A stretch of DNA of 64,000 nucleotides, from assembly GCA_020342235.1 (NCBI GenBank), contig CP073219.1:954028-1018027 (forward strand). The letters run 5' to 3'. The notes under the pieces are model-generated. The model was not told where the DNA came from, did no database searches, and saw only the letters and a program-made list of their open reading frames with translations. Both the position numbers and the translations under genes were made by a program. Below are positions 3,919 through 64,000 of this stretch, one piece after another; the first letter of the stretch is position 1, and the number at the start of each line of letters is the position of its first letter. The DNA comes from Saccharomycopsis phalli. Taxonomy: Eukaryota; Ascomycota; Saccharomycetes; Ascoideales; Saccharomycopsidaceae.

Positions 3919-6900
3919 ATGTCATCAACTGCTCCCCCAGAAAAGGGCAAGGCTCTTGTTTTGGAAAATACAAGCAAGAGAGACGCCCTTATTGAAATTG
4001 AGAAGAAGTATCAAAAAAAATGGATTGAGGACAAGGTTTTCGAGCTTGACGCTCCTACTCTTGAAGAGTACCCAGATAGTGTTGACCCAGACGCTATTCG
4101 AAAAGAGGTTCCAAAGTATTTTGCCACTATGGCGTATCCATACATGAATGGTGTTCTCCATATTGGCCATGCGTTTACTCTTTCGAAAGTGGAGTTTGCC
4201 ACTGGGTTTGAGCGTATGAATTTTAAGCAGGGCGGAGCTCCAAAAAGGGCCTTGTTCCCATTGGGGTTCCACTGTACTGGAATGCCAATTCGGGCCTCGG
4301 CAGATAAGATTGCGCGAGAGTTGGAGTTGTTTGGTCCAAACTTTGAGAACTACCGGGAGGATGCCGAGGAAGTGGAGCCAGAAGTTAAGGAAGCTGCCAA
4401 GAATGAGGATGTCACCAAGTTCAAGGCAAAGAAGTCCAAGGCGTTGGCAAAGCAGGGCAAGTCGAAGTATCAGTTCCAGATTATGCAGCAGTCTGGCATT
4501 GAGCTTTCTGAGATTCCGAAATTTGCCGATGCGTCGTACTGGCTTGAGTATTTCCCACCGCTTGTTGAGAGAGATGTGAATGCTTTGGGAGGACGTGTTG
4601 ACTGGCGTCGATCGATGGTGACGACCGACGTGAATCCGTACTACGATCTGTTTATCCGCTGGCAAATCACCAAGCTCAGAGACTTGGGGAAGATCAAGTT
4701 TGGCGAGAGATATACCATTTACTCCGAGAAGGACGGACAAGCTTGTATGGACCACGACAGAGCCAGTGGAGAAGGTGTTGGACCACAGGAGTACACTGGT
4801 ATCAAGATTGAGTTGAAGGAGATCAACGACAAGGTCGCTGAGATCTTCAATGCAAGTAAGTTTGATGTCTCTGGTAAGAAGATCTTCTTGGTGGCAGCAA
4901 CTCTTCGGCCAGAGACCATGTACGGGCAGACCTGTTGCTTTGTGTCTCCAAAGATCACCTACGGGTTGTTTGATGCTGGAAAAGGAGAGTACTTCATCAG
5001 CACCCGCAGAGCGTTCAAGAACATGTCGTACCAGAACTTGACTCCTAAGCGGGGATTTCATGAGCCTGTGCTTGAGATTCCGGGTTCTGTTCTCATTGGA
5101 TCGCAGATCAAGGCTCCTTTGGTGGAGAGAATCCTCCACGTCTTACCTATGGAGACCATTTTGCCAAACAAGGGTACCGGAGTGGTCACTTGTGTGCCAT
5201 CGGACTCTCCAGATGACTGGATCACCCAACAGGAGTTGACTCAAAAGTCAGAGTACTACGGCATCAAGAAGGAATGGGCTGATGTGCCAGTGACTCCTCT
5301 TATTCGTACCAAGTATGGTGACGTGATTGCCAAGACTCTTTGTGAGGACCTCAAGATCCAGTCGCCAAAGGACGCGGTCCAATTGGCCAAGGCCAAGGAA
5401 ATCGCCTACAAGGAGGGATTCTTCCATGGTGTTATGATCTTTGGCAAGTACTCTGGCCAGAAGGTCGAAGACGTGAAAGCAAAGGTCAAGGAGGACTTTG
5501 TCACCTCTGGCGAGGGATTTGTCTACAATGAACCAGAAGGCCAGGTTGTCTCGCGGTCGGGCGATGACTGTGTGGTGTCCTTGGAAGACCAATGGTACAT
5601 TGACTATGGTGAAGAGAACTGGAAAGAACAGGCTTTGGAGGCCCTCCACATGATGAACACGTTTTCGTCGGATACCGAAAACGCGTTTGAGCGTGTCTTG
5701 GACTGGCTCAAGAACTGGGCCGTGACCAGAACCTATGGGCTTGGAACCAGACTTCCTTGGGATGAGCAGTACCTCGTGGAGTCTCTTTCCGACAGTACCA
5801 TATACCAGTCTTTCTACACATTCTGCCACTTGTTGCACTCCGACTTTTACGGCCGGGTGAAGGGTCCTCTTGGAATTGATGCCAAGGACATGACTGGCGA
5901 GGTGTGGGAGTACATTCTCTTGAGAAGAGAGAACATCAAGACAAACATTCCATTGAGCAAGTTGGATATCCTTCGAAGAGAGTTTGAGTATTTCTATCCG
6001 TTGGATATCTCCGCCTCTGGCAAGGACTTGATTCCTAACCACTTGACCTTCTACATATACACCAATGTGGCTATTTTCCCAAAGAAGTTCTGGCCTGCTG
6101 GAATCAGAGGCAATGGCCATTTGCTCTTGAACAACGCCAAGATGTCAAAGAGCTCTGGTAATTTCTACACTCTTAATGAAATCACCAAAAAGTTTGGTGC
6201 CGATGCCGCGAGAATCGCTCTTGCAGACGCAGGTGATTCGATCGAAGACGCCAATTTCGACGAGCAGAATGCCTCAGCTGCTATTCTCAGATTGTACACC
6301 TTTAAGGAGTGGGCCGACGAGATTGTCTCCTCTGTCGGATCGTTGAGAAGCGGAGAAAAGAACTTCTTTGACTTGGCTTTTGAGAACGAAATGGACAGTC
6401 TCACCGAGGAGGCTTATACCCAGTACTCAGAGACCAACTACAAGTTTGCATTAAAGGCTGCTTTGTTTGACTTCCAAACCGCAAGAGATTACTACGTTGA
6501 TGTTTCTGGAGGGTCCAAGGGCGTCCACAAGGACATTATTTTCGAGTACATTCGAAGACAAGCTCTTCTTCTCGCTCCTATTGCCCCTCATTTCGCCGAG
6601 TACATCTTTGTGGATGTCTTGGGCAATAAGGGTACGGTCCACTCTACTCCATTCCCTCGAGCAAGCAAGCCGCCTAGCCAAGGGCTTACAGACTCTTTGG
6701 AATACTTGAGAGAACTCGCTAGATCTATTAGAGAAGCAGAGTTTGCTGCCTCCAAGCCAAAGAAGGGAAAGAATGTCAAAAACTTGGATACTAGCAAGCC
6801 AGCGGACATTACCTTGTACATTGCTTCGTCCTTCCCAGAATGGCAAGAAAAGTATATTGAGATTGTCCGCGAGTTGTTTGAGTCGCATACTCTTGGTGAT

Positions 6901-7236
6901 AACAAGGTTGTCAAGTCTAAGATTGATCCTAAGGACATGAAGAAGGCGATGCCATTTATTTCTCTCATCAAGGCCAGATTGACCAAGGAGAAGCCGGAGA
7001 CTGTTCTCGATAGAAAGTTGAGTTTTGATGAGTTGGAGCTTGTTAAGAAGACTCTTTCTATTATCCAGAGAAGCACAGCCAAGACCACGATTGAGTCGGT
7101 CAAGCTTATTTCCTTTGCCAGTGGATCAGCCAAGGGTGTGGTTATTGGATCCAATGAAGAGGTTGAGCTTCCAAATATCAAGGCTGTTGAGTCTGCGGTT
7201 CCAGGGAAGCCAGGAATTTCTATTGCTAATGTATAA
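3919..7236 (+). CDS. CDC60: Cytosolic leucyl-tRNA synthetase
   Basis: Class I synthetase charging tRNA-Leu in the cytosol. 1105 residues, close to the S. cerevisiae protein (about 1090). Signature motifs: H-I-G-H in P-Y-M-N-G-V-L-H-I-G-H (about residues 75-85) and K-M-S-K-S in N-N-A-K-M-S-K-S-S-G-N-F (about 740). The T-rich/CP1 editing domain (T-L-R-P-E-T-M-Y-G-Q) and the C-terminal anticodon-binding region are intact. Codon 244 is CTG (4648-4650) inside N-P-Y-Y-D-x-F-I-R-W, where the S. cerevisiae residue is Ala as I recall it; this fits CUG read as Ser better than Leu. In CUG-Ser yeasts this enzyme is also expected to interact weakly with the ambiguous tRNA. The ATG at 3919 has an A-rich context and directly begins the homologous part. 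Confidence 0.97.
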   Translation: MSSTAPPEKGKALVLENTSKRDALIEIEKKYQKKWIEDKVFELDAPTLEEYPDSVDPDAIRKEVPKYFATMAYPYMNGVLHIGHAFTLSKVEFATGFERMNFKQGGAPKRALFPLGFHCTGMPIRASADKIARELELFGPNFENYREDAEEVEPEVKEAAKNEDVTKFKAKKSKALAKQGKSKYQFQIMQQSGIELSEIPKFADASYWLEYFPPLVERDVNALGGRVDWRRSMVTTDVNPYYDLFIRWQITKLRDLGKIKFGERYTIYSEKDGQACMDHDRASGEGVGPQEYTGIKIELKEINDKVAEIFNASKFDVSGKKIFLVAATLRPETMYGQTCCFVSPKITYGLFDAGKGEYFISTRRAFKNMSYQNLTPKRGFHEPVLEIPGSVLIGSQIKAPLVERILHVLPMETILPNKGTGVVTCVPSDSPDDWITQQELTQKSEYYGIKKEWADVPVTPLIRTKYGDVIAKTLCEDLKIQSPKDAVQLAKAKEIAYKEGFFHGVMIFGKYSGQKVEDVKAKVKEDFVTSGEGFVYNEPEGQVVSRSGDDCVVSLEDQWYIDYGEENWKEQALEALHMMNTFSSDTENAFERVLDWLKNWAVTRTYGLGTRLPWDEQYLVESLSDSTIYQSFYTFCHLLHSDFYGRVKGPLGIDAKDMTGEVWEYILLRRENIKTNIPLSKLDILRREFEYFYPLDISASGKDLIPNHLTFYIYTNVAIFPKKFWPAGIRGNGHLLLNNAKMSKSSGNFYTLNEITKKFGADAARIALADAGDSIEDANFDEQNASAAILRLYTFKEWADEIVSSVGSLRSGEKNFFDLAFENEMDSLTEEAYTQYSETNYKFALKAALFDFQTARDYYVDVSGGSKGVHKDIIFEYIRRQALLLAPIAPHFAEYIFVDVLGNKGTVHSTPFPRASKPPSQGLTDSLEYLRELARSIREAEFAASKPKKGKNVKNLDTSKPADITLYIASSFPEWQEKYIEIVRELFESHTLGDNKVVKSKIDPKDMKKAMPFISLIKARLTKEKPETVLDRKLSFDELELVKKTLSIIQRSTAKTTIESVKLISFASGSAKGVVIGSNEEVELPNIKAVESAVPGKPGISIANV

Positions 7237-39790: not shown

Positions 39791-40279
39791 ATGAGACCGA
39801 CGCTTGGATTGTTGACCAATAATACCGCAGTGTATGAGCAGCTACCGTTGATTTTGCGCAACTTCTTCCAGAAGCACTTGCCTGCGACATATGTCAAGTA
39901 CAACGACAAGCCAGGGTTGACTACCGACGCCAACGCCAATCCGTTTTTGCCAAACAAGCATCCAGTGACGAATAAGTACCATTCGCCCAAGTATTCGCTC
40001 AGAAGACAGTCTGTGTTGTTTAAGACCGCCAAGCGGTATGGCATTGAAGATCTTTTGCCGGGATTGAATAAGAAGTTTTTTGAGGACAAGTACAACAGCA
40101 AGAAGTTTATGAAGGGCGTGTTGCGGCCAAAGGGACACAAGCACGAGTTGGCTAGTGAGGCCAAGCAGGAGAAGATCCAAAAGGGTTTGGACGGCATGAA
40201 TGACAAGATTATTGCCGTAAAGGGCAGCAAGTTTAAGAAGAGATTGGAGAGTAAGAAGCAGGAGAAGAGTTTCTATTAG
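39791..40279 (+). CDS. MRPL25: Mitochondrial large-subunit ribosomal protein mL59
   Basis: 162 residues, near yeast Mrpl25 (157). The N-terminal L-P-L-I-L-R-N-F-F, then N-P-F-L-P-N-K-H-P-V-T, Y-H-S-P-K-Y-S-L-R-R-Q and a lysine-rich C terminus are characteristic of this fungal-specific mitoribosome protein. The frame continues upstream to 39713, but those codons cross the promoter; ATG 39791 begins the homologous protein. Confidence 0.85.
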   Translation: MRPTLGLLTNNTAVYEQLPLILRNFFQKHLPATYVKYNDKPGLTTDANANPFLPNKHPVTNKYHSPKYSLRRQSVLFKTAKRYGIEDLLPGLNKKFFEDKYNSKKFMKGVLRPKGHKHELASEAKQEKIQKGLDGMNDKIIAVKGSKFKKRLESKKQEKSFY

Positions 40280-40368
40280 AATATGATAGATAGCATGTAT
40301 ATATAACAAGCCACTGTGTGTGTAGGCATTGGGAGGTATCTGGCATGGCAAAGGGATGGGATTGTTAG

Positions 40369-40432
40369 ATTGTTGATCCCATGATTGTTGATCCCATGAT
40401 TGTTGATCCCATGATTGTTGATCCCATGATTC
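40369..40432 (+). repeat. 15-bp tandem repeat, about 4 copies
   Basis: Unit gttgatcccatgatt, nearly perfect, downstream of mL59. Confidence 0.95.
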
Positions 40433-40667
40433 AGGTAATTATTGATTCATAGATGGTGTCAATTCCCACGTCAATTCCATGACAGTGCCTCTTCCAGTTA
40501 CAGGTACAGTTTACGTATCACTTACCTATCCATCAGACTCACTACTCCATTTGGACCCAGTCTGCATCTGGTTTCATCAACATGCCTTCCATAGTTTGTA
40601 TTAAGGAACATCTCAACACTATAATATTGCAGACAATCCCCAGAATTCTCACTAATCATCTATTCAA

Positions 40668-40763
40668 ATGTGGTGCTGCTGTCAATGTAAAATTTGCTGG
40701 GAAGACTTTGAGTCCTACTGTGACTGTTGTGGACACACCTTCTGTCGAGGATGCCGCTACTGA
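40668..40763 (+). CDS. Cys-rich zinc-ribbon-like microprotein 1
   Basis: ATG frame of 31 codons: nine Cys and one His. Spacing is W-C-C-C-x-C-x2-C, then C-x-C-C-G-H-x2-C-R-G-C. Such pairs of Cys knuckles with a final C-x2-C resemble tiny fungal zinc-ribbon proteins that start M-W and end in C-G-H-x-x-C-x-x-C (recalled, not searched). The composition is very unlikely in random AT-rich intergenic DNA, and a second frame with the same plan follows 106 bases later. Function unknown; nucleic-acid or protein binding by a zinc knuckle is only a guess. An AT-rich actataata lies about 50 bases upstream. Confidence 0.5.
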   Translation: MWCCCQCKICWEDFESYCDCCGHTFCRGCRY

Positions 40764-40818
40764 GTGATGGTGGAATGAGGGAACAAGTGATGCTACGTAT
40801 AACTTTTCTCCAAAATAG

Positions 40819-40826
40819 TATATAAA
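40819..40826 (+). promoter_or_regulatory. TATATAAA box before microprotein 2
   Basis: Good TATA element 44 bases before the ATG at 40870, supporting transcription of the second mini-ORF. Confidence 0.5.
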
Positions 40827-40869
40827 ACGACCTGGCTCTATTTTCTTGTATCATATTGAATTTATCAAC

Positions 40870-41004
40870 ATGTTCTGGATGTGCTGTAAATGCGGTAGAA
40901 TGAATACATTTGTGTATGCCTTGGGTAGAGGAACGTGCCCAAATTGCTGTCATGTTGCTACTGGCTGTCGGGGCTGCAAAAGATATGGTCAGTCGTCAAT
41001 TTAA
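40870..41004 (+). CDS. Cys-rich zinc-ribbon-like microprotein 2
   Basis: ATG frame of 44 codons with eight Cys: W-M-C-C-x-C-G near the start, then C-P-N-C-C-H and C-R-G-C-K. It shares with microprotein 1 the order W / C-C-x-C / C-x(1-2)-C-C / H / C-R-G-C, so the two are probably tandem paralogues. A TATATAAA box lies 44 bases upstream. A C-x2-C ... C-x2-C arrangement would suit a zinc ribbon. No known yeast gene matches from memory. Confidence 0.55.
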   Translation: MFWMCCKCGRMNTFVYALGRGTCPNCCHVATGCRGCKRYGQSSI

Positions 41005-41169
41005 GTTGGTCTGGTCAATTGTATGGCAAATATATATTGTGGCTAGTACGATTTGTTGTAGTATCTTGGTGCCGGGATATGTTGATGGCCTGACTATACT
41101 TTGTGCAGTTGATTATCCTGAGGTGATGAGCGAGTTGTTTAGTAGTTCTCTGTTGTGGTTGGGTTAGTT

Positions 41170-41310
41170 GTAGCTGTAGTTATCTAATAACTGTAGTTAT
41201 CTAATAACTGTAATCTCTAGTAACTGTAATCTCTAGTAACTGTAATCTCTAGTAACTGTAATCTCTAGTAACTGTAATCTCTAGTAACTGTAGTCTCTAG
41301 TAACTGTAGT
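41170..41310 (+). repeat. 16-bp tandem repeat, 7-8 copies
   Basis: Unit taactgtaatctctag, preceded by two related copies with ttatctaa in place of atctctag. Last copies change to gtagtctc. Confidence 0.95.
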
Positions 41311-41444
41311 ATTTGTATATGATAGGTATAGTTGTATTTGTAGTTATCTGGTAGCTGTATCTGGTAGCTATATCCACCAACTATAATTACCAGTCACATT
41401 GTATGCAGGTCAATCCATTCCTCATGCCAACTAACCATGTCTTA

Positions 41445-41560
41445 TAAACCAACCATTTCCTATTATACACTACCCATTCCTCATAGCCACCCACTCCTCA
41501 TAACCACCACTTCTCATAACCACTCACTCCCCATAACCACCATTCTTCATACAAACCATC
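41445..41560 (+). repeat. Degenerate ctcataaccaccact repeat
   Basis: Pyrimidine/CCA-rich tract with 5-6 loose copies of cctcataaccacc, upstream of VNX1. Confidence 0.7.
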
Positions 41561-41875
41561 CCATCAACCAATCCACCTTCTCACATTTCTTCCCCTTCCA
41601 GCATTTTATTTCCGCTAAAGGCATGATAATCTACACGCATACACTCGGCCTCACAAGGCAAAATACCCCATAGCCCAGCTCACACAACAGTAAATCGCCA
41701 CCCAATTCCGCCCCAATTCTACCCCCAATGCTCCCACCAATTTTTCCATTCTCCATTCTCCGCCAGGTTGCCTGGTGGCCTGTGTATTTCCGCGTAACAT
41801 GGCGCATACTACTGCGGTATCGTGCATCATCAATTTCTAAAATTCTCTATATTTAGGAGACAAGTTAATCTTTAC

Positions 41876-41891
41876 TTCATTCATGAAGTAA
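41876..41891 (+). promoter_or_regulatory. Hairpin and ATG-AAG-TAA uORF in the VNX1 leader
   Basis: ACTTCATTCATGAAGT is a perfect 7-bp inverted repeat with a 2-base centre. Its right arm contains ATG AAG TAA (41883-41891), a two-amino-acid upstream ORF ending 12 bases before the VNX1 ATG. Could reduce initiation; inferred. Confidence 0.45.
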
Positions 41892-41903
41892 AAAGTCTTG
41901 AAC

Positions 41904-44900
41904 ATGCCCACCGCAAAAAAAGATGATTCTTCTGAAAGCTCCAGCCCGCTTCTCCACTCGCAATCTTCCAGCCGCTACTTGAAGAACCCCGCGCCAACTC
42001 CTCCCGCTGACAACCATCACAAGCAGTTTGTGCTCTTGCAACCGAAAAAGCTACTCCAGGTCCAACGGACCGCTTCCGCATCTGCTGTGCAGCAGACCGG
42101 TTCGCGGAGCATCAGCGGCGACAAAAAGAAAAAGCTCCAAAAGCTCCCAATCACTCCGTCCAAATCCAGGTTCATCTTCAGTGTCGAAGACGGCGAGGAT
42201 GAAATCGAGCAGGACTTGGAACGGGAGTATTTGGAAGGCTACCACGATGCACTCAGGGGGAAATTACGCAAGAAGCTTTCGAAAAACCCATTGCCGTCGC
42301 CCAGACTAAATGGCTCCGACTTTGAGCATCCAGACTCCAAGACCATAAAAGAATTGGAGAGCACTGTGGCCCAGAACCTCTTGAAAGTCGAGGAAGGCTT
42401 GAAAGAATTGGAAATCAGAGAGGACGACTTGGTCCATCAGATGGACCCGCGTGTTTCCGAAAGTAACCACTCGCTTCATGAGGAGACCTTTACCGATACC
42501 GAGCATGAGAATGCGCCAGAAGATCACGACGCGGCATCTGTTGACGGAAAGTCGGTCCAGGGGCCTGTCGTTGAAGAAGGCTCGAACAGCGACGATACCG
42601 AGTCGATTTCTTCGATTGAGAGCTTCACGTTGAGAGAGCGACAGGACGCAATCAACACCACCCACCCGTTTGGTATACGTATCTGGAAGCCTGCCATCTA
42701 CAAGAAGTTCCGGTCGGTGCAAAAGGAGGCGGACTTGGATATCCACGAGGAGGAGGACTCGAGCCGGAATATCCACAACAGTGTGTATATTGGGAACTTT
42801 CTTTGGACGTTGACGTTTGGTTGGGTATGCTTAGCAGTGTGTTCAGTAGGCCTGTTGTTGTCGATCATTACGTTTGGCTGGACCGAGAACTCGATTGAGT
42901 ACGCGCAGGTGTTTTGGAAGGTCGGGGTCTACTTGTTTTATCCGTTTGGCAAGGTGGTGTACTTGTACAAGGACGAGAACTACATCCACGAGGACATCAA
43001 TGAGGGCAGCTCGATCAACGAGTATCGGCGATGGGCAAACGACCTGGAGACCGGGTTCTTGTTCACGTCGAACCACCGTGCGGCGCGCGACGAAAGTGCC
43101 CCGCTTCTTGGCGATTCGTCCAGCAGCATCAACTACAGCAGCGTGCGTCGGCACCACGATCCGGAGTTCAACGTCAAGGTGCGGTTGTTTGGACGAGGCC
43201 AGTGGAGCATTGGCCGGATCTTCTTCTTCCTCTACTTCTATCTTGTGCTCCAGCCGGTGCTCGTGCTCATTTCCGCGCTCTGCTGGTTGTTTGTGTTCAC
43301 CATTCCCATGGCCAATGTCACGTTTACGCTCTGCACCCACTTACGTCAGCGGCCATTGTCCATGTTCTTCAAGTCAGAGAAAAACACCAAGATCTCCAAC
43401 AAGGACGCCAGCGTGTTGCTCTGCACCTTCAGAGCCAGTGGGCTCCACTATTATCGGTACACTGTGGACGGTACCAACGTGATCATTCTCAACTTGATGG
43501 CCATTGTCTTGTTTGTCATTTTCGACTTCTACTTCATCAGGGAGTTTCTCGAGGTCGACAACTTCCTCACAGACTCGTCCTTGATCTTCTTCATCTGCTT
43601 GCTCAGCATCATTCCACTTGCCTACTTCATTGGCCAGGCTGTTGCCTCGATTTCGGCCCAGTCTTCCATGGGCGTTGGTGCAGTCATCAACGCATTTTTC
43701 TCCACCATCGTCGAGATATACCTCTACTGCGTGGCCCTCAACCAGCAAAAGGGCCATTTGGTTGAAGGTTCCATGATCGGCTCGATCTTGGGCGCAGTAT
43801 TGCTCTTGCCAGGGCTCTCAATGTGTGCCGGTGCCATCAAGCGCAAAACCCAACGGTACAACCCGCGGAGTGCCGGGGTCAGCTCGACGATCTTGTTGTT
43901 TTCCACCGTGGTAATGTTCCTCCCATCGGTGTTCCATCAGATCTTTGGCATCCACGAGTTGCGCTGCTTCCCGTGCAACACGAAAAACGACGCCTTTGGG
44001 GCCACCATCCAGTCGGTGACCCTGACGTTTGTCGACATCAGCGCAACCTGCGAGAAATGCCACATTTCACAGCCTCCGTTGAAGGCAGACAAACTCTATC
44101 TCCACATCTTGAAGCCCTTTTCGCTCTTTGCAGGCTGCGTCTTGTTCTTTGCCTACCTCATTGCGCTATGGTTCACGCTTCGTACCCACGCCGCATTAAT
44201 CTGGCAGGGCTCCTCCGAAACCCGCCACGTGGCTCCGTCCATTTCCAATTCCGAGCCTCTTCGGCCAGAACCACCTAGCAGCTTGAAGTCCCCTAGCGTC
44301 TTGTCCTTGAACGAGATAGCCCCACCGGCTCGCCCAGGCGTCACCAGAAGAATGACAAACTCCACCTCGCAAAAGGGACGCAAGGACCAGCCAAAACAAG
44401 AGGTATTGGACACTCAGCGCCAGCAACTTCCGGCCGACGAACAGCATGCCGATGAGTCCTCTGGTGGCCACGATGCGCCAAACTGGTCGAGAACAAAGTC
44501 GGCTGTGATATTGCTTGGTGCCACACTTCTCTATGCCGTGATTGCCGAGATCTTGGTGGACTGTGTCGACGCAGTGTTGAAACAATTCCCAATCAACCCC
44601 AAGTTCCTTGGGCTCACGGTGTTTGCATTGGTTCCAAACACCACGGAGTTCTTGAACGCCATTAGTTTTGCAATCTACGGCAACGTCGCCTTGTCCATGG
44701 AGATTGGAAGTGCCTACGTGTTGCAGGTGATCCAGTTGCAGATCCCTGCTCTTGTGTTTTTTTCCATTTGGAGACTCTCCCAGGTACCTGCCGACAAGAT
44801 AGGATCATGGGACTTGTCTGACAACATGCTTGCCTTGATATTCCCCTTGTGGGACTGTCTTAGTGCCGTGACCTCGGTGTACATCTTCACATATATCTAC

Positions 44901-45014
44901 GCTGAGGGTAAGAGTAACTACTTTAAAGGAAGCTTGTTGATTTTATTTTACTTGGTGGTCATGCTAGGGTTTTACTACTCTGGAGAGGTATTCCCTACCT
45001 TTGTGAGACCTTGA
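41904..45014 (+). CDS. VNX1: Vacuolar monovalent cation/H+ exchanger, CAX family
   Basis: Vnx1-type low-affinity Na+/H+ and K+/H+ antiporter of the vacuolar membrane. 1036 residues (yeast 908). The long N-terminal cytosolic part (1 to about 290) is Ser-rich and acidic. It is followed by the conserved DUF-like hydrophobic block (S-V-G-L-L-L-S-I-I-T-F-G-W). The two Na/Ca exchanger repeats come next: first I-N-A-F-F-S-T-I-V-E-I ... G-S-M-I-G-S-I-L-G, second L-V-P-N-T-T-E-F-L-N-A-I-S-F ... L-S-M-E-I-G, each with the membrane-embedded Glu. About 11-13 membrane segments overall. A hydrophilic loop (about 775-860) separates the halves. The frame extends to a TTG at 41898; ATG 41904 is first. In S. 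cerevisiae the same family includes YDL206W; length and N-terminal block favour VNX1. Confidence 0.88.
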   Translation: MPTAKKDDSSESSSPLLHSQSSSRYLKNPAPTPPADNHHKQFVLLQPKKLLQVQRTASASAVQQTGSRSISGDKKKKLQKLPITPSKSRFIFSVEDGEDEIEQDLEREYLEGYHDALRGKLRKKLSKNPLPSPRLNGSDFEHPDSKTIKELESTVAQNLLKVEEGLKELEIREDDLVHQMDPRVSESNHSLHEETFTDTEHENAPEDHDAASVDGKSVQGPVVEEGSNSDDTESISSIESFTLRERQDAINTTHPFGIRIWKPAIYKKFRSVQKEADLDIHEEEDSSRNIHNSVYIGNFLWTLTFGWVCLAVCSVGLLLSIITFGWTENSIEYAQVFWKVGVYLFYPFGKVVYLYKDENYIHEDINEGSSINEYRRWANDLETGFLFTSNHRAARDESAPLLGDSSSSINYSSVRRHHDPEFNVKVRLFGRGQWSIGRIFFFLYFYLVLQPVLVLISALCWLFVFTIPMANVTFTLCTHLRQRPLSMFFKSEKNTKISNKDASVLLCTFRASGLHYYRYTVDGTNVIILNLMAIVLFVIFDFYFIREFLEVDNFLTDSSLIFFICLLSIIPLAYFIGQAVASISAQSSMGVGAVINAFFSTIVEIYLYCVALNQQKGHLVEGSMIGSILGAVLLLPGLSMCAGAIKRKTQRYNPRSAGVSSTILLFSTVVMFLPSVFHQIFGIHELRCFPCNTKNDAFGATIQSVTLTFVDISATCEKCHISQPPLKADKLYLHILKPFSLFAGCVLFFAYLIALWFTLRTHAALIWQGSSETRHVAPSISNSEPLRPEPPSSLKSPSVLSLNEIAPPARPGVTRRMTNSTSQKGRKDQPKQEVLDTQRQQLPADEQHADESSGGHDAPNWSRTKSAVILLGATLLYAVIAEILVDCVDAVLKQFPINPKFLGLTVFALVPNTTEFLNAISFAIYGNVALSMEIGSAYVLQVIQLQIPALVFFSIWRLSQVPADKIGSWDLSDNMLALIFPLWDCLSAVTSVYIFTYIYAEGKSNYFKGSLLILFYLVVMLGFYYSGEVFPTFVRP

Positions 45015-55383: not shown

Positions 55384-56766
55384 ATGACTCAGACTTTTCA
55401 GCCGTTGGTTATCCAAAGCACTATTTCTGCCCCTAAGCCCATGGCTGTTGGTGGAGATGGCATATACATCACTCTTGAAGATCCAGTTACAAAGGTTCGC
55501 TCCACATTAATTGATGGCTCTACTGGAGCCTCAGTTGGCGCCGTGGGACATTGTGACCGGGAAATCATTGATGCCATGAAGCAAGCCGCTGAGACTAGTG
55601 TTTATAATTACCCCACTGCAATCTCAAACTACCCCTCTGAAGAATTGGCCAAGTTTTTGATCTGCAACTCACCTGCCCAGGCATTTGGTGCAGCCCTAAT
55701 CACTGGGTCGGGATCGGAGTCAATTGAAAATGCCCTCAAGTTAGCCAAACAATATCAGGACCAAATCGGGCAGTCCCAACGGTACAAGTTTGTTTCACGT
55801 AAACAGTCGTATCACGGATACACATGCGGTGCTCTTGCCTTGGGAGACAATCCGCGAAGAGTGCGCTTTGACAAGTTTCTTGCGCCAAAAGACGTGTTTT
55901 TGAAGTCTGACGCAGTATATCCCTACCGCCAAGCTAAGGAAGGGGAATCGTTGGAGGAATATAAGGACCGGTTGATTAAGCAGGTTGAAAAAGTGTTTGT
56001 TGATAACGACCCTAGTACTATTGTCGCCTGGGTGGGAGAGACCGTTGGCGGGTCTACCTTTGGAACCTGCCCACCACCACCAGGTTACCTTGAAGAAGTT
56101 CGGAATCTTTGCCACAAGCATGGAATTTTATTCATCTTGGATGAGGTCATGTGCGGCATTGGCAGATGTGGCACGTTTCATGCTTGGGAACAATTCTTGC
56201 CAAAGGACAAAGGACCAGATATCCAGACTATAGGAAAGACCCTTGGTGGAGGATACGTCACAATTGCTGCAGTATTAGTATCTCCAAAAGTTAAAGATGG
56301 GTTGGCGTCTGAATCTGGATACATTGTAGGTGGGCAAACCTACCATCAGCATGCATTCAACTGCTCAGTAGCACTAGCAGTGCAAGAAAAAGTTAAACGA
56401 GACGGACTAGTCGAGAATATTAAGCAAAGCGGGAATTATCTTGGCAAGCAATTACAAGAAAAGCTCCTTGGAAAATCTAAGATTGTTGGTGATGTCAGGG
56501 GAGTAGGGGGGTTCTGGTCCATTGAGTTTGTCAAAGATACAAGCACCAAAGAGCCATTTCCAGCCGCTATGAAATTCCACGGTATAGTGGGAAATCAAAT
56601 CACCAAAAATGGTGCAGTTACCATGCCATGCCCAGGTACAGCAGATAATGTTGACGGTGACCATGTTCTCCTCTCCCCAAGCTTTATTATCACTAAGGAG
56701 CAAGTGGCCCAGTTGGTGGAAATCATTGTCCAGTCAATCCAAGAAGTGGAATCTGAATATAGCTGA
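55384..56766 (+). CDS. Class-III PLP aminotransferase, paralogue 1
   Basis: 460 residues, fold-type-I aminotransferase of subgroup III. Motifs: T-G-S-G-S-E-S-I-E-N-A-L-K-L-A-K (about 107-122), S-Y-H-G-Y-T-C-G-A, L-D-E-V-M-C-G-I-G-R-C-G with PLP-binding D253, and the Schiff-base lysine K285 in T-I-G-K-T-L-G-G-G-Y. It resembles uncharacterised fungal aminotransferases of the S. pombe C27F1.05c/C1771.03c type (from memory). It is not ARG8 (present elsewhere), CAR2 or UGA1, which have different N-terminal motifs. Substrate unknown. No targeting peptide. A highly similar gene lies directly downstream, same strand. Confidence 0.85.
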   Translation: MTQTFQPLVIQSTISAPKPMAVGGDGIYITLEDPVTKVRSTLIDGSTGASVGAVGHCDREIIDAMKQAAETSVYNYPTAISNYPSEELAKFLICNSPAQAFGAALITGSGSESIENALKLAKQYQDQIGQSQRYKFVSRKQSYHGYTCGALALGDNPRRVRFDKFLAPKDVFLKSDAVYPYRQAKEGESLEEYKDRLIKQVEKVFVDNDPSTIVAWVGETVGGSTFGTCPPPPGYLEEVRNLCHKHGILFILDEVMCGIGRCGTFHAWEQFLPKDKGPDIQTIGKTLGGGYVTIAAVLVSPKVKDGLASESGYIVGGQTYHQHAFNCSVALAVQEKVKRDGLVENIKQSGNYLGKQLQEKLLGKSKIVGDVRGVGGFWSIEFVKDTSTKEPFPAAMKFHGIVGNQITKNGAVTMPCPGTADNVDGDHVLLSPSFIITKEQVAQLVEIIVQSIQEVESEYS

Positions 56767-56966
56767 GTTGTATACTTTTGTTTTTATCGATATTGGTCAC
56801 ACTAATAAACTGGCCTACCGAGTAGCTCGTATGATCTTACATGTCAAAACGCCAAATGACCACCAAATAATAACAAGCGCCGAATTAACATGCTCATGCT
56901 TTTTGGTTCTCCACCTGATAGATAAAGCTCATCGCAGCTCATCGCGCACTTGCCTGATTTGGAAAG

Positions 56967-58412
56967 ATGCGACATGGCTATATTAACCAGGAAATTTCCA
57001 TGAATTGGTGTAAATTATATATTTTTATTTTACTCATGACTATTTCTGTTATTCAAGGTCACGTCTCTGATATCAAGCCTAGAGTAGTCGATGGCAAAGG
57101 GTGCTACCTCACAATCGAAGACCCCGTTACTAAAGAAAAGATCACAAAGTTGGATGGTGCTACGGGGGCCGCAGTAGGAAATGTCGGATATCGCGATCCG
57201 GAAATCATCGAGGAAATGAAGAAAGCTGCCGAGGAATCCGTGTACAATTTCCCTTTGTACGTGTCCAACTATCCCGCTGAGGAATTGGCCAACTTCTTGA
57301 TTGAATCCTCCCCTACTGGTACTTTTAAGACGGCACTACTCACATGCTCTGGCTCTGAATCAATAGAGAATGCTCTTAAGCTCGCTAAGCAGTACCAAGA
57401 CGAGGTGGGCGAAAAGCAGCGCTACAAGTTTGTCAGCAGAAAAAAGTCTTACCACGGGTATACATTTGGCGCCATGTCCTTGGGCGATAACTCAAGAGCA
57501 ACGCCATTCGATGCCATTGTATGTGACAAGAAAAACCAGTTTATCAAGTCCAGCGCTGTTTACCCATATAGAGATGTGAAGCAGGGAGAATCTTTGGAAC
57601 AATACAAAGATAGATTGGTTCAAGAAGTCGAGCAGGTATTTATTGCCAATGACCCAAGTACTATTGTCGCATGGGTTGCTGAAACCGTTGGTGGTACCAC
57701 TTTTGGAACCTGCCCACCAGTTCCAGGCTATTTTGAAGGAGTTCGAGATTTGTGCCACAAATTTGGCATCTTGTTCATATTGGACGAGGTCATGTGTGGA
57801 GTTGGAAGATGCGGCACGTTTCATGCCTGGGAACAATTCTTGCCAATTGACAAGGGTCCAGATATTCAGACTATAGGTAAGACCCTTGGGGGAGGATATG
57901 TTACTATTGCTGGTGTTTTAGTCTCGCCAAAGGTCACTGATGCCATTGCAAAGGGCTCTAATAACATTTTGGGGGCACAAACATATCACCAACACGCGTT
58001 CAACTCGAGGGTGGCCCTTGCTGTCCAAAAGAAGGTCAAACGTGAAAACATCATTGCGAGTATTCGTGAAAATGGCAGCTATTTTGGCAAAGAACTAGCG
58101 TCAAGACTCTTGGGCAAGTCTAAAACTGTTGGTGACGTGAGAGGCGCAGGGGGATTTTGGTCTATTGAATTGGTACAAGATACTGTAACAAAAGAGCCAT
58201 TTCCGGCAAGTTCCCATTACTATACAAAAGTATACAACAAGCTTTATGAAAATGGACTTATCACTTTACCTGGTGCAGGAACCGTTGACAATGCGGTAGG
58301 TGACCATATCTTATTCTCTCCTAGTCTAAACATCAGCAAAGATGAGATTGACAAAATGTTACAGATCGTGGAGAAATCAATCTTTCAAGTAGAGGCAGAC
58401 TTAGGCTTATGA
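56967..58412 (+). CDS. Class-III PLP aminotransferase, paralogue 2
   Basis: Clearly a tandem duplicate of the preceding gene: the catalytic blocks are almost the same (T-I-G-K-T-L-G-G-G-Y, L-D-E-V-M-C-G-V-G-R-C-G), including S-Y-H-G-Y-T-F-G-A. Three in-frame ATGs compete: 56967 (481 aa), 57000 and 57036 (458 aa). From 57000 the protein would begin with M-N-W-C-K-L-Y-I-F-I-L-L-M-T-I-S, a textbook secretory signal peptide. From 57036 it matches paralogue 1 in length. I list the longest; the short form is more typical of the family. The gene gap is 200 bases. Substrate unknown. Confidence 0.8.
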   Translation: MRHGYINQEISMNWCKLYIFILLMTISVIQGHVSDIKPRVVDGKGCYLTIEDPVTKEKITKLDGATGAAVGNVGYRDPEIIEEMKKAAEESVYNFPLYVSNYPAEELANFLIESSPTGTFKTALLTCSGSESIENALKLAKQYQDEVGEKQRYKFVSRKKSYHGYTFGAMSLGDNSRATPFDAIVCDKKNQFIKSSAVYPYRDVKQGESLEQYKDRLVQEVEQVFIANDPSTIVAWVAETVGGTTFGTCPPVPGYFEGVRDLCHKFGILFILDEVMCGVGRCGTFHAWEQFLPIDKGPDIQTIGKTLGGGYVTIAGVLVSPKVTDAIAKGSNNILGAQTYHQHAFNSRVALAVQKKVKRENIIASIRENGSYFGKELASRLLGKSKTVGDVRGAGGFWSIELVQDTVTKEPFPASSHYYTKVYNKLYENGLITLPGAGTVDNAVGDHILFSPSLNISKDEIDKMLQIVEKSIFQVEADLGL

Positions 58413-61431: not shown

Positions 61432-63313
61432 CTTCAGTTGAGCTGCGGTGAAGAAATCAAAATTTTGTGTATGCAGTTGAGTGCGTTAATATGCATCATG
61501 TGCGTCCCGTTTGTTAGAGAAAATATCGAGAGTCACAGCCAGCCAGACACAGTATGAATATACGACTTCAGAATATTATAAAAAAATTTATCCAAAAAAT
61601 ACTTTTGACCCTAATTAAATAAAATTACTCTCTGACATTAATACCGCACTTTAATTAAAACATAAGCTCTCTTGGATAATCGAAAGCTGTCCTACTTTAT
61701 GCAAAGAATCAAGAAGCCCACAACGTTTAAAGAAATATAATAAAAAACCAGGCAGGCAATTACTGGGTACTGAACCAGTAACCCTACACGAGCCCTAACT
61801 GGCTGAGACGTTCTGGTAACATAGACTAAGACAATCAGAGAAATGGGGCTAATATCCCACAATCGTACATGAGATCCAAAGCTGCAACATGCTAGGTTTG
61901 TCAATTCATTTGCAACTCAACTAAACAATAAGCAATCCCTAAGAAACAATAAACAGATTTACAATAGCCTATTCCAATCTTTAATCAATCCACCGACAAA
62001 TAAAATTTCACTAAGCTGTAAAAGAGTATGCCACTCACAACAAACCAGCGACCCAGCTGGCACCTTCGAATCCGAAAAAATACAATAGTCTATCCTTAAC
62101 TCCATTACCTTCTTCCAGTAATTCTATTACTATTTATTTATTGATTTAAAGAGTTTTTGGAGATATATTGAGAGAAAAGGATTGCATGTAAGGTGGTGCA
62201 TGATATTATGGTTGAGCGGTTCGAATCTGGGAAGTGAGGAAATAAAGGAAGAGTGATAAGAGGATAAAAAAAGAAGATATGAAGATATAAATGAGATAAT
62301 ATGAATAAGAAAAAAAAGAGAAATTAAATGATATGATTTTTGATAATTGAAGTGGAGGAAAAAAAAAATGATAAATTTTGAAATTAGAGTGGGAGAGATG
62401 ATAAAATAAAGAAGATGAAATAATATTAAAAGAAGGAAAAAAAAGGAAAAAAAAAATAATAGAAAGAGAAGATGGAATTTTTTTTAACAAGGACAAGTAT
62501 AAAATAAATAATACTAAGGTGTTGTTGTTGGGGAAGATTTGGTGGGTAGGAAATATAAATGGATGGGCGTGGGAGATTTAGTGGGACTGGGGGAGAAAAA
62601 AGGGCAAGGGAGAGAAAAACAAAGCTGCATGTGGGCGGGACGGGCGTTGTGCGTGGGAAAAAGCCGTGCAAAGCATGAAAAATGAAAAAGTCAAGGGGGA
62701 TAAGAAACCTCGATTTTCAAGATTTTTACAAGAGCGTTGTATGTAAAAGCATTTTTTTTTTGCTTAACAGGGGTCGGAGGTTATACATGAGAAAGAAAAC
62801 AAAAAGAAATTGAAAGCGTATGAATAATACGAGTTTAATGGAAGTTTGGAATATTTTTCATATAAATTTATTTTATTTAGCAATGCTGTTTAGTGGAAAA
62901 CCGTTAAAGCTGTTCCGAATAATTAGGAGTAAGCTGGTTTAGAAACAAACAGTATGAGTATTATTACTCAAACAGTCTTAGCCCAGGACTTTTCTGTGGT
63001 TAAGCACTGATGGATTTGGTGGACTACTAGCCTATGGCAAGTAAAAACTAAAGACGAACTTGGGGATCTGTTCTGGGAAATAGCCGGGGCGATATTTTAT
63101 ATCAAACTGTTGATTTCTCAAGGATACTCTCCTTTTTGGAGCGCCATCCTAAGACTACCGGGGGCAACCTTGGTGGGAACTTGGGGGAAGTGGTCCAGAA
63201 GAAATTAAAGAGAGCTACAAGGATTAGCGGGAAAATTAAGTTTTTCTCTGCTACAAACAACTATAATAACTCGGGCGGGTTCTTTGGACCTGCCCACGGC
63301 CTAGCCAAATAGT
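61432..63313. other. Single-copy/rDNA junction, spacer and 5' ETS
   Basis: About 1.9 kb before the 18S gene. AT-rich to about 62200, then a purine-rich tract on the + strand (62216-62480), then a G-rich part (62515-62680) and the 5' ETS. No 5S rRNA gene is seen: none of its internal control sequences occur. The Pol I start site cannot be set from the sequence. The exact edge of the rDNA repeat is not visible. Confidence 0.6.
62216..62480 (+). repeat. Purine-rich low-complexity tract
   Basis: Almost all A/G with T islands: repeated gaagatga, aaaaaaag, gataaaa motifs over about 260 bases. Any frame here on the minus strand is low-complexity and not called. Confidence 0.75.
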
Positions 63314-64000
63314 TATCTGGTTGATCCTGCCAGTAGTCATATGCTTGTCTCAAAGATTAAGCCATGCATGTCTAAGTATAAGCAATTATACAGTGAAACT
63401 GCGAATGGCTCATTAAATCAGTTATCGTTTATTTGATAGTACCTTTACTACTTGGATAACCGTGGTAATTCTAGAGCTAATACATGCTAAAAATCCCGAC
63501 TGTTTGGAAGGGATGTATTTATTAGATAAAAAATCAATGCACTTTGTGCTTTTTGATGATTCATAATAACTTCTCGAATCGCATGGCTTCATGCTAGCGA
63601 TGGTTCATTCAAATTTCTGCCCTATCAACTTTCGATGGTAGGATAGTGGCCTACCATGGTTTCAACGGGTAACGGGGAATAAGGGTTCGATTCCGGAGAG
63701 GGAGCCTGAGAAACGGCTACCACATCCAAGGAAGGCAGCAGGCGCGCAAATTACCCAATCCTAATTCAGGGAGGTAGTGACAATATATAACGATACAGGG
63801 CCCTTTTGGGTCTTGTAATTGGAATGAGTACAATTTAAATACCTTAACGAGGAACAATTGGAGGGCAAGTCTGGTGCCAGCAGCCGCGGTAATTCCAGCT
63901 CCAAGAGCGTATATTAAAGTTGTTGCAGTTAAAAAGCTCGTAGTTGAACTTTGGGTTTGGCTGGCCGGTCCGTTTTTTTACGAGTACTGGTTTCAGCCGA
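63314..64000 (+). rRNA. 18S (SSU) ribosomal RNA, 5' part
   Basis: Begins tatctggttgatcctgccag, the universal 18S start; the conserved gtgccagcagccgcggtaat element is present at about 63873. About 687 of roughly 1790 bases are visible before the window end. The sequence up to the 530 loop looks intact, so this is a real unit rather than a fragment. The identity is secure; its place in the array cannot be seen. Confidence 0.99.

Follow-up and report, generated by a model that had tools for sequence, protein, structure and literature searches.

A tandem pair of unannotated, probably zinc-type microprotein genes in a yeast nuclear spacer

Results

Two short cysteine-rich frames between MRPL25 and a VNX1-like gene

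The DNA analysed here, a stretch of 64,000 nucleotides that we refer to as the window, is yeast nuclear DNA. At its 5' end lies a gene for an EF-Tu-type GTPase with QYGQG-type repeats ahead, which we take to be SUP35-like, and its 3' end enters ribosomal DNA, where the 18S rRNA gene (Rfam SSU_rRNA_eukarya) begins at 63314. Upstream of the 18S gene, positions 62150-62720 are strongly purine-rich, and a GC skew of 0.44 and an AT skew of 0.20 are found across 62001-63000. Two class-III aminotransferase genes stand in tandem on the + strand at 55384-58412.

The frames described in this report lie in a spacer of 1,624 bases (40280..41903), the third longest of the window's 16 stretches of more than 200 bases in which no ATG ORF reaches 100 aa. 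Upstream, the spacer is bounded by the gene for mL59 (MRPL25; 39791..40279, + strand; Pfam PF18126, E 1.2e-31; PDB mL59 chains, best E 2.6e-40), which adjoins an acetylornithine aminotransferase gene (ARG8-like). Downstream, it is bounded by a gene for a YccF and Na/Ca exchanger protein (41904..45014, + strand; Pfam PF01699 and PF03733) that is presumably VNX1-like. The spacer also holds several tandem repeats, among them a 15-base unit, GATTGTTGATCCCAT, present in 4.3 copies at 40368-40431 with 100% matches, and a 16-base unit, TCTAGTAACTGTAATC, present in 7.8 copies at 41183-41308 with 95% matches. The repeats flank the two frames on either side and overlap neither of them.

The first frame, P1 (40668..40763, + strand), has 31 codons and encodes the 31-aa peptide MWCCCQCKICWEDFESYCDCCGHTFCRGCRY, with ten cysteines, one histidine, two tryptophans, two phenylalanines and two tyrosines. 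The second, P2 (40870..41004, + strand), has 44 codons and encodes the 44-aa peptide MFWMCCKCGRMNTFVYALGRGTCPNCCHVATGCRGCKRYGQSSI, with eight cysteines, one histidine, one tryptophan, two phenylalanines and two tyrosines. We treat them as candidate zinc microprotein genes 1 and 2. They are separated by 106 bases and share the strand of both neighbouring genes; 388 bases separate the MRPL25 stop from the P1 ATG, and 899 bases follow P2 before the VNX1-like ATG. Each frame is preceded by an in-frame stop, followed by 4 codons before the ATG in P1 and by 17 in P2. The ends, strand and spacing are as given in a preliminary description of the locus, which had counted nine and eight cysteines; the count for P2 is correct, but that for P1 is one too low. 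The same description placed an upstream element 44 bases from P2. The element, TATATAAA (40819..40826, + strand), is present, but 43 bases before the ATG; as a possible TATA element it is weak evidence, because TATAWAWR sites are common in the window (58 matches, counting both strands and overlaps, vs 14.3 expected in shuffles).

Two other identities for the frames were considered and set aside. P1 closes with a stop and P2 lies in another frame, contrary to their being exons of one gene, and a search with Rfam at gathering thresholds for an RNA gene matched nothing in the window but the 18S rRNA.

A shared ligand pattern that is not due to chance

P1 and P2 have in common the start methionine, one tryptophan placed right after it or one residue past it, seven cysteines, one histidine, a threonine and a C-R-G-C-(K)-R-Y end. 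The shared motif can be written as W-x-C-C-x-C ... C-x2-C-x-H-x2/4-C-x2-C, and the elements by which the frames were originally recognised (W-x-C-C-x-C, C-x(1-2)-C-C, a histidine and a final C-R-G-C) are all correct in both peptides. A six-frame scan of the window finds the motif at P1 and P2 only. It is absent from all 36,858 ORFs of 25-60 aa in 6 Mb of sequence simulated with a third-order Markov model built from the window's own spacers, a post hoc test, as P1 and P2 themselves supplied the motif. Of these 36,858 simulated ORFs, 8 have at least eight cysteines; the departure from chance therefore lies in how the cysteines are spaced and the frames paired, rather more than in the number of cysteines.

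Alignment of the two peptides gives a score of 75, which none of the 36,343 ORFs of a second simulation reached (maximum 51). The window itself has 252 ATG ORFs of 25-60 aa; ranked by their score against P1, and leaving P1 aside, P2 comes first at 75 and the next reaches 46. The score is likewise reached by none of 5000 composition shuffles and by 7 of 5000 with the cysteine positions fixed; local alignment at standard gap costs sets the pair apart less clearly, the corresponding numbers of shuffles as good as the real pair being 19 and 62 of 5000. The pairing of P1 with P2 is therefore not due to chance. Once every motif column is fixed, the real score is matched in 135 of 3000 shuffles. Apart from the motif and the CRGC(K)RY end, then, the peptides share little, and for this reason the origin by duplication that had been proposed for them is likely rather than demonstrated.

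Likeness in the protein without likeness in the DNA

The coding DNA of the two frames shows no DNA-level similarity (156 of 500 shuffles are equally alike), and for the DNA upstream of them 215 of 500 shuffles are equally alike. Codons differ at 9 of the 13 identical degenerate residues, a count conditioned on residue identity, and over 31 aligned codons pS is 0.91 and pN 0.41, the latter biased downwards by a protein alignment in which one end was re-placed by hand. The silent sites look saturated while the protein pattern appears to have been kept. Likeness in protein without likeness in DNA is the trace that selection on the protein would leave, and supports such selection without proving it; the codon differences alone are compatible with an old duplication and with convergence. 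Taken with the shared tryptophan, seven cysteines and histidine, and with a score never seen in simulation, the lack of DNA similarity favours the earlier suggestion that the frames encode related zinc-type microproteins. Codon-usage scores are +1.98 for P1 and -0.57 for P2, against gene quantiles (5%/50%/95%) of -5.7/4.9/13.2 for 40-codon stretches.

Comparison with known zinc families

Neither P1 nor P2 passes the cut-off of any Pfam or NCBIfam family. Among Pfam matches listed to E 10, from which the HMMER filters drop most weak ones, P1 matches zf-RING_UBOX (PF13445) at E 8.5e-4 with 19.7 bits, under the cut-off of 25.2, and the best match of P2 has E 0.16, with no match to RING. The RING C3HC4 consensus is C-x2-C-x(9-39)-C-x(1-3)-H-x(2-3)-C-x2-C-x(4-48)-C-x2-C. 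Residues 7-29 of P1, C-x2-C ... C-x-H-x2-C-x2-C, match positions 1-24 of the 39 in the zf-RING_UBOX profile and resemble RING ligands 1 to 6. P1 ends two residues after the sixth, however, and so lacks ligands 7 and 8, and P2 differs further in having H-x4-C, likewise with no seventh or eighth ligand. Neither peptide has the full eight-ligand consensus or passes the curated profile cut-off. In a search of PDB sequences, the three best matches of P1 are RING chains (E 0.02-0.03, best 0.021) and P2 has one chance-level match (E 0.87), while a profile of P1 and P2 together matches a cysteine-rich stretch of RNF31 (E 0.038).

Proteins of the RanBP2 type follow the consensus W-x-C-x(2-4)-C-x3-N-x6-C-x2-C. 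The W-x-C-x2-C-x3-N of P2, found also in the bacterial peptide described below, resembles this consensus and N-terminal bacterial zinc ribbons. In contrast to RanBP2-type fingers, however, P1 has no asparagine, P2 has ten residues before the next cysteine, and the H-x2-C-x2-C end is extra; zf-RanBP is absent among the Pfam matches listed for P1, P2 and the bacterial peptide, and the peptides depart from the type. The name zinc ribbon used in the preliminary description thus suits the first half of the peptides (W-x-C-x2-C ... C-x2-C), but their H-x2/4-C-x2-C end is more like a RING or treble clef.

Searches in phage, plasmid, viral and prokaryote collections

With tblastn, P2 gave chance-level matches to 2 phage and 3 plasmid records and P1 to 4 plasmid records, all at E 2 to 8; one of the phage records covers 84% of P2 at 38% identity (E 8). 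In viral contigs, query A1 gave 33 pattern stretches, of which two loci were kept (L001 and L002), both of them 48% matches to residues 5-29 of the query. L001 was rejected as a relative, its match lying inside a 558-aa ORF that is helicase-like by eye. Query A2 gave 259 pattern stretches in viral contigs with none confirmed, and query A1 gave 38 in prokaryote genome contigs, again with none confirmed. The motif pattern beginning M-W found no stretch in viral contigs. The only viral stretch with the W-[FY] pattern, L003, is a frame opposite ORFs of 110 and 116 aa and was taken as chance.

A scan of prokaryote contigs for M-W-x-CC-x-C...CxxCxHxxCxxC returned one stretch, in a Thermoflexales MAG, where 0.001-0.004 would be expected with independent bases in a set that, by the tool's description, holds one genome for each of 84,980 species. 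The L003 case shows that chance matches to the motif pattern can arise despite a low expectation. The stretch is a micro-ORF of 43 codons (contig JAUQXC010000340.1, positions 6860-6991 of locus L004) encoding MFRTMLRILAGAMWACCQCHTQNKGTAKCANCGHVKCANCINR, of 43 aa, or 31 aa from an inner ATG. The peptide has the tryptophan, seven cysteines and histidine of P1 and P2 in register, but it is bacterial, was retrieved by the motif itself and has no likeness to them beyond it: 642 of 3000 motif-fixed shuffles are as good against P1 and 264 of 3000 against P2. A Shine-Dalgarno-like AAGGAG lies shortly upstream of the ATG, and no promoter-like or terminator-like sites were found around the micro-ORF. 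Further upstream the frame stays open as far as a GTG, which would give 101 aa, and the contig carries ordinary bacterial neighbours (CtaG, a histidine kinase and Memo/AMMECR1). The best Pfam match of the peptide is Siva, at E 0.014 and below cut-off.

Matches of this type were then counted in two overlapping samples of related genomes, with not every candidate scored in the larger genomes. The class sample of 298 genomes has 34 with a match at E <=0.1, and the phylum sample (Chloroflexota) of 400 genomes has 9 at E <=0.005; the Thermoflexales MAG leads both at E 2.6e-13, followed by a match at E 8.1e-4. The other four matches in the same MAG are weak (E 1.1 to 2.2). Loci were obtained for 20 of the 39 class-sample matches and for all 9 phylum-sample matches. 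In the fetched loci, 12 of which were also translated around the match, the full motif occurs only at the place already known in this MAG and in the viral L003, and the loci sampled from Chloroflexota added no further example. Against plasmids, the bacterial peptide gave five matches; the annotated genes under the two that were examined lack the C-terminal H-x2-C-x2-C. In a hypothetical protein of a Nostoc plasmid (L038, 338-841), MWECCKCHEQN...C-x2-C is a stretch of zinc-ribbon type that resembles the beginning of P2 but has no H-x2-C-x2-C end, and two more Nostoc records match the same part of the query.

Discussion

The locus holds what are probably two real, paired and unannotated genes for zinc-type microproteins, each a stand-alone ORF of less than 100 aa with paired Cys/His ligands. 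We consider it likely that P1 and P2 are paralogous genes for small binuclear zinc-binding proteins and descend from an ancient tandem duplication. Translation would start at the ATG of each frame and yield soluble proteins of 31 to 44 residues, and the eight ligands that they share (seven cysteines and one histidine) would match the number needed for two tetrahedral Zn(II) sites. An N-terminal zinc-ribbon-like pair (C-x2-C ... C-x2-C) may be joined to a C-terminal H-x2/4-C-x2-C knuckle, predicted to be RING-like in P1 apart from the absence of RING ligands 7 and 8. Our best guess is that such a protein would be a binding module, stabilised by zinc, that modulates a partner, either a protein or a nucleic acid, by docking on it; this action seems the most likely because the peptides are too small for a catalytic domain. 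A regulatory or adaptor role as such is guesswork, which we hold with considerable reserve.

Small proteins of this general kind have been described elsewhere. One report (PMC11241148) describes the Haloferax volcanii HVO_2753 kind, stand-alone one-domain zinc-finger proteins that stay under 70 aa, carry two or more Cys-pair motifs and are predicted to bind zinc. P1 and P2 are also small and stand-alone, with cysteine pairs predicted to bind zinc, but the HVO_2753 kind is archaeal, has another ligand pattern and gives a profile match of only E 5.3. According to the same source, 5 of 14 purified haloarchaeal zinc-finger microproteins were zinc-free, and AlphaFold2 cannot tell if cysteines are set for metal binding (PMC11241148). 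AlphaFold2 models of P1 and P2 are poor, with mean pLDDT of 46 and 55. Microprotein regulators occur in budding yeast generally, an example being Nrs1, of 108 aa (PMC8893695).

The main rival to a binding module is metal buffering, in which P1 and P2 would be metallothionein-like peptides holding Cu, Zn or Cd clusters and duplicated as metallothionein genes often are. Their very high cysteine content (10 of 31 residues in P1 and 8 of 44 in P2), small size and tandem order would suit this, but typical metallothioneins have cysteine clusters without aromatic residues or histidine, whereas P1 has two W, two F, two Y and one H and P2 one W, two F, two Y and one H. The ligands of both are spaced as in a folded zinc finger, and no metallothionein family appears in the Pfam listing to E 10. 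We therefore regard metal buffering as improbable.

Somewhat less probable again is that the frames do not code, being pseudogenic or other non-coding DNA in which cysteine-rich peptides can be read by chance or after decay. Such an origin would fit short frames with uninformative codon-usage scores and repeats on both sides, and the phage, plasmid, viral and prokaryote collections, none of them fungal, yielded no convincing homologue; against it stand the alignment score, unmatched among simulated ORFs and far above that of the next real ORF, and a motif found nowhere else in the window or in the simulations. We give very little weight to the idea that P1 and P2 are short ORFs within the 3' untranslated region of MRPL25 or the 5' untranslated region of VNX1, acting in cis on these genes. 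The common strand would allow it, but P2 ends 899 bases short of the VNX1-like ATG and P1 is 388 bases from the MRPL25 stop, and a cis-acting uORF would presumably need no matched zinc-type motif in two frames.

P1 and P2 might be members of an as yet unnamed microprotein family, stand-alone and with eight ligands (W-x-CC-x-C ... CxxC-x-H-x2/4-CxxC), whose truncated RING-like binuclear zinc fold would occur in yeasts and, here and there, in bacteria, and which annotation would overlook for its shortness. We think membership of such a family unlikely, though well short of negligible. The likeness of the Thermoflexales peptide to P1 and P2 may reflect convergence, rare transfer or a sparse old family. 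Short hypothetical proteins with W-x-CC-x-C ... CxxCxHxxCxxC in filamentous ascomycetes are a lead only; six fragments of such proteins were not found in the literature searched, and in that search, by titles and the starts of abstracts, the motif of P1 and P2 was not found as a subject.

Should the two genes be real, they would be unusually small folded zinc proteins of yeast, of lengths that gene callers usually skip, and would supply a definite motif for seeking a missed family in other fungi. Their tandem arrangement means that the pair could easily be deleted and tested.

A minor observation concerns the genetic code of the host. CTG is rare in the window, at 77 of 1520 Leu-type codons, and neither P1 nor P2 has one in frame. 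Five of the CTG codons, from an ABC transporter gene (three) and the ARG8-like aminotransferase gene (two), were compared with PDB alignments: nearly all stood opposite non-leucine residues or gaps, and one met leucine, in one alignment. This would fit a CUG-Ser yeast without settling the matter.
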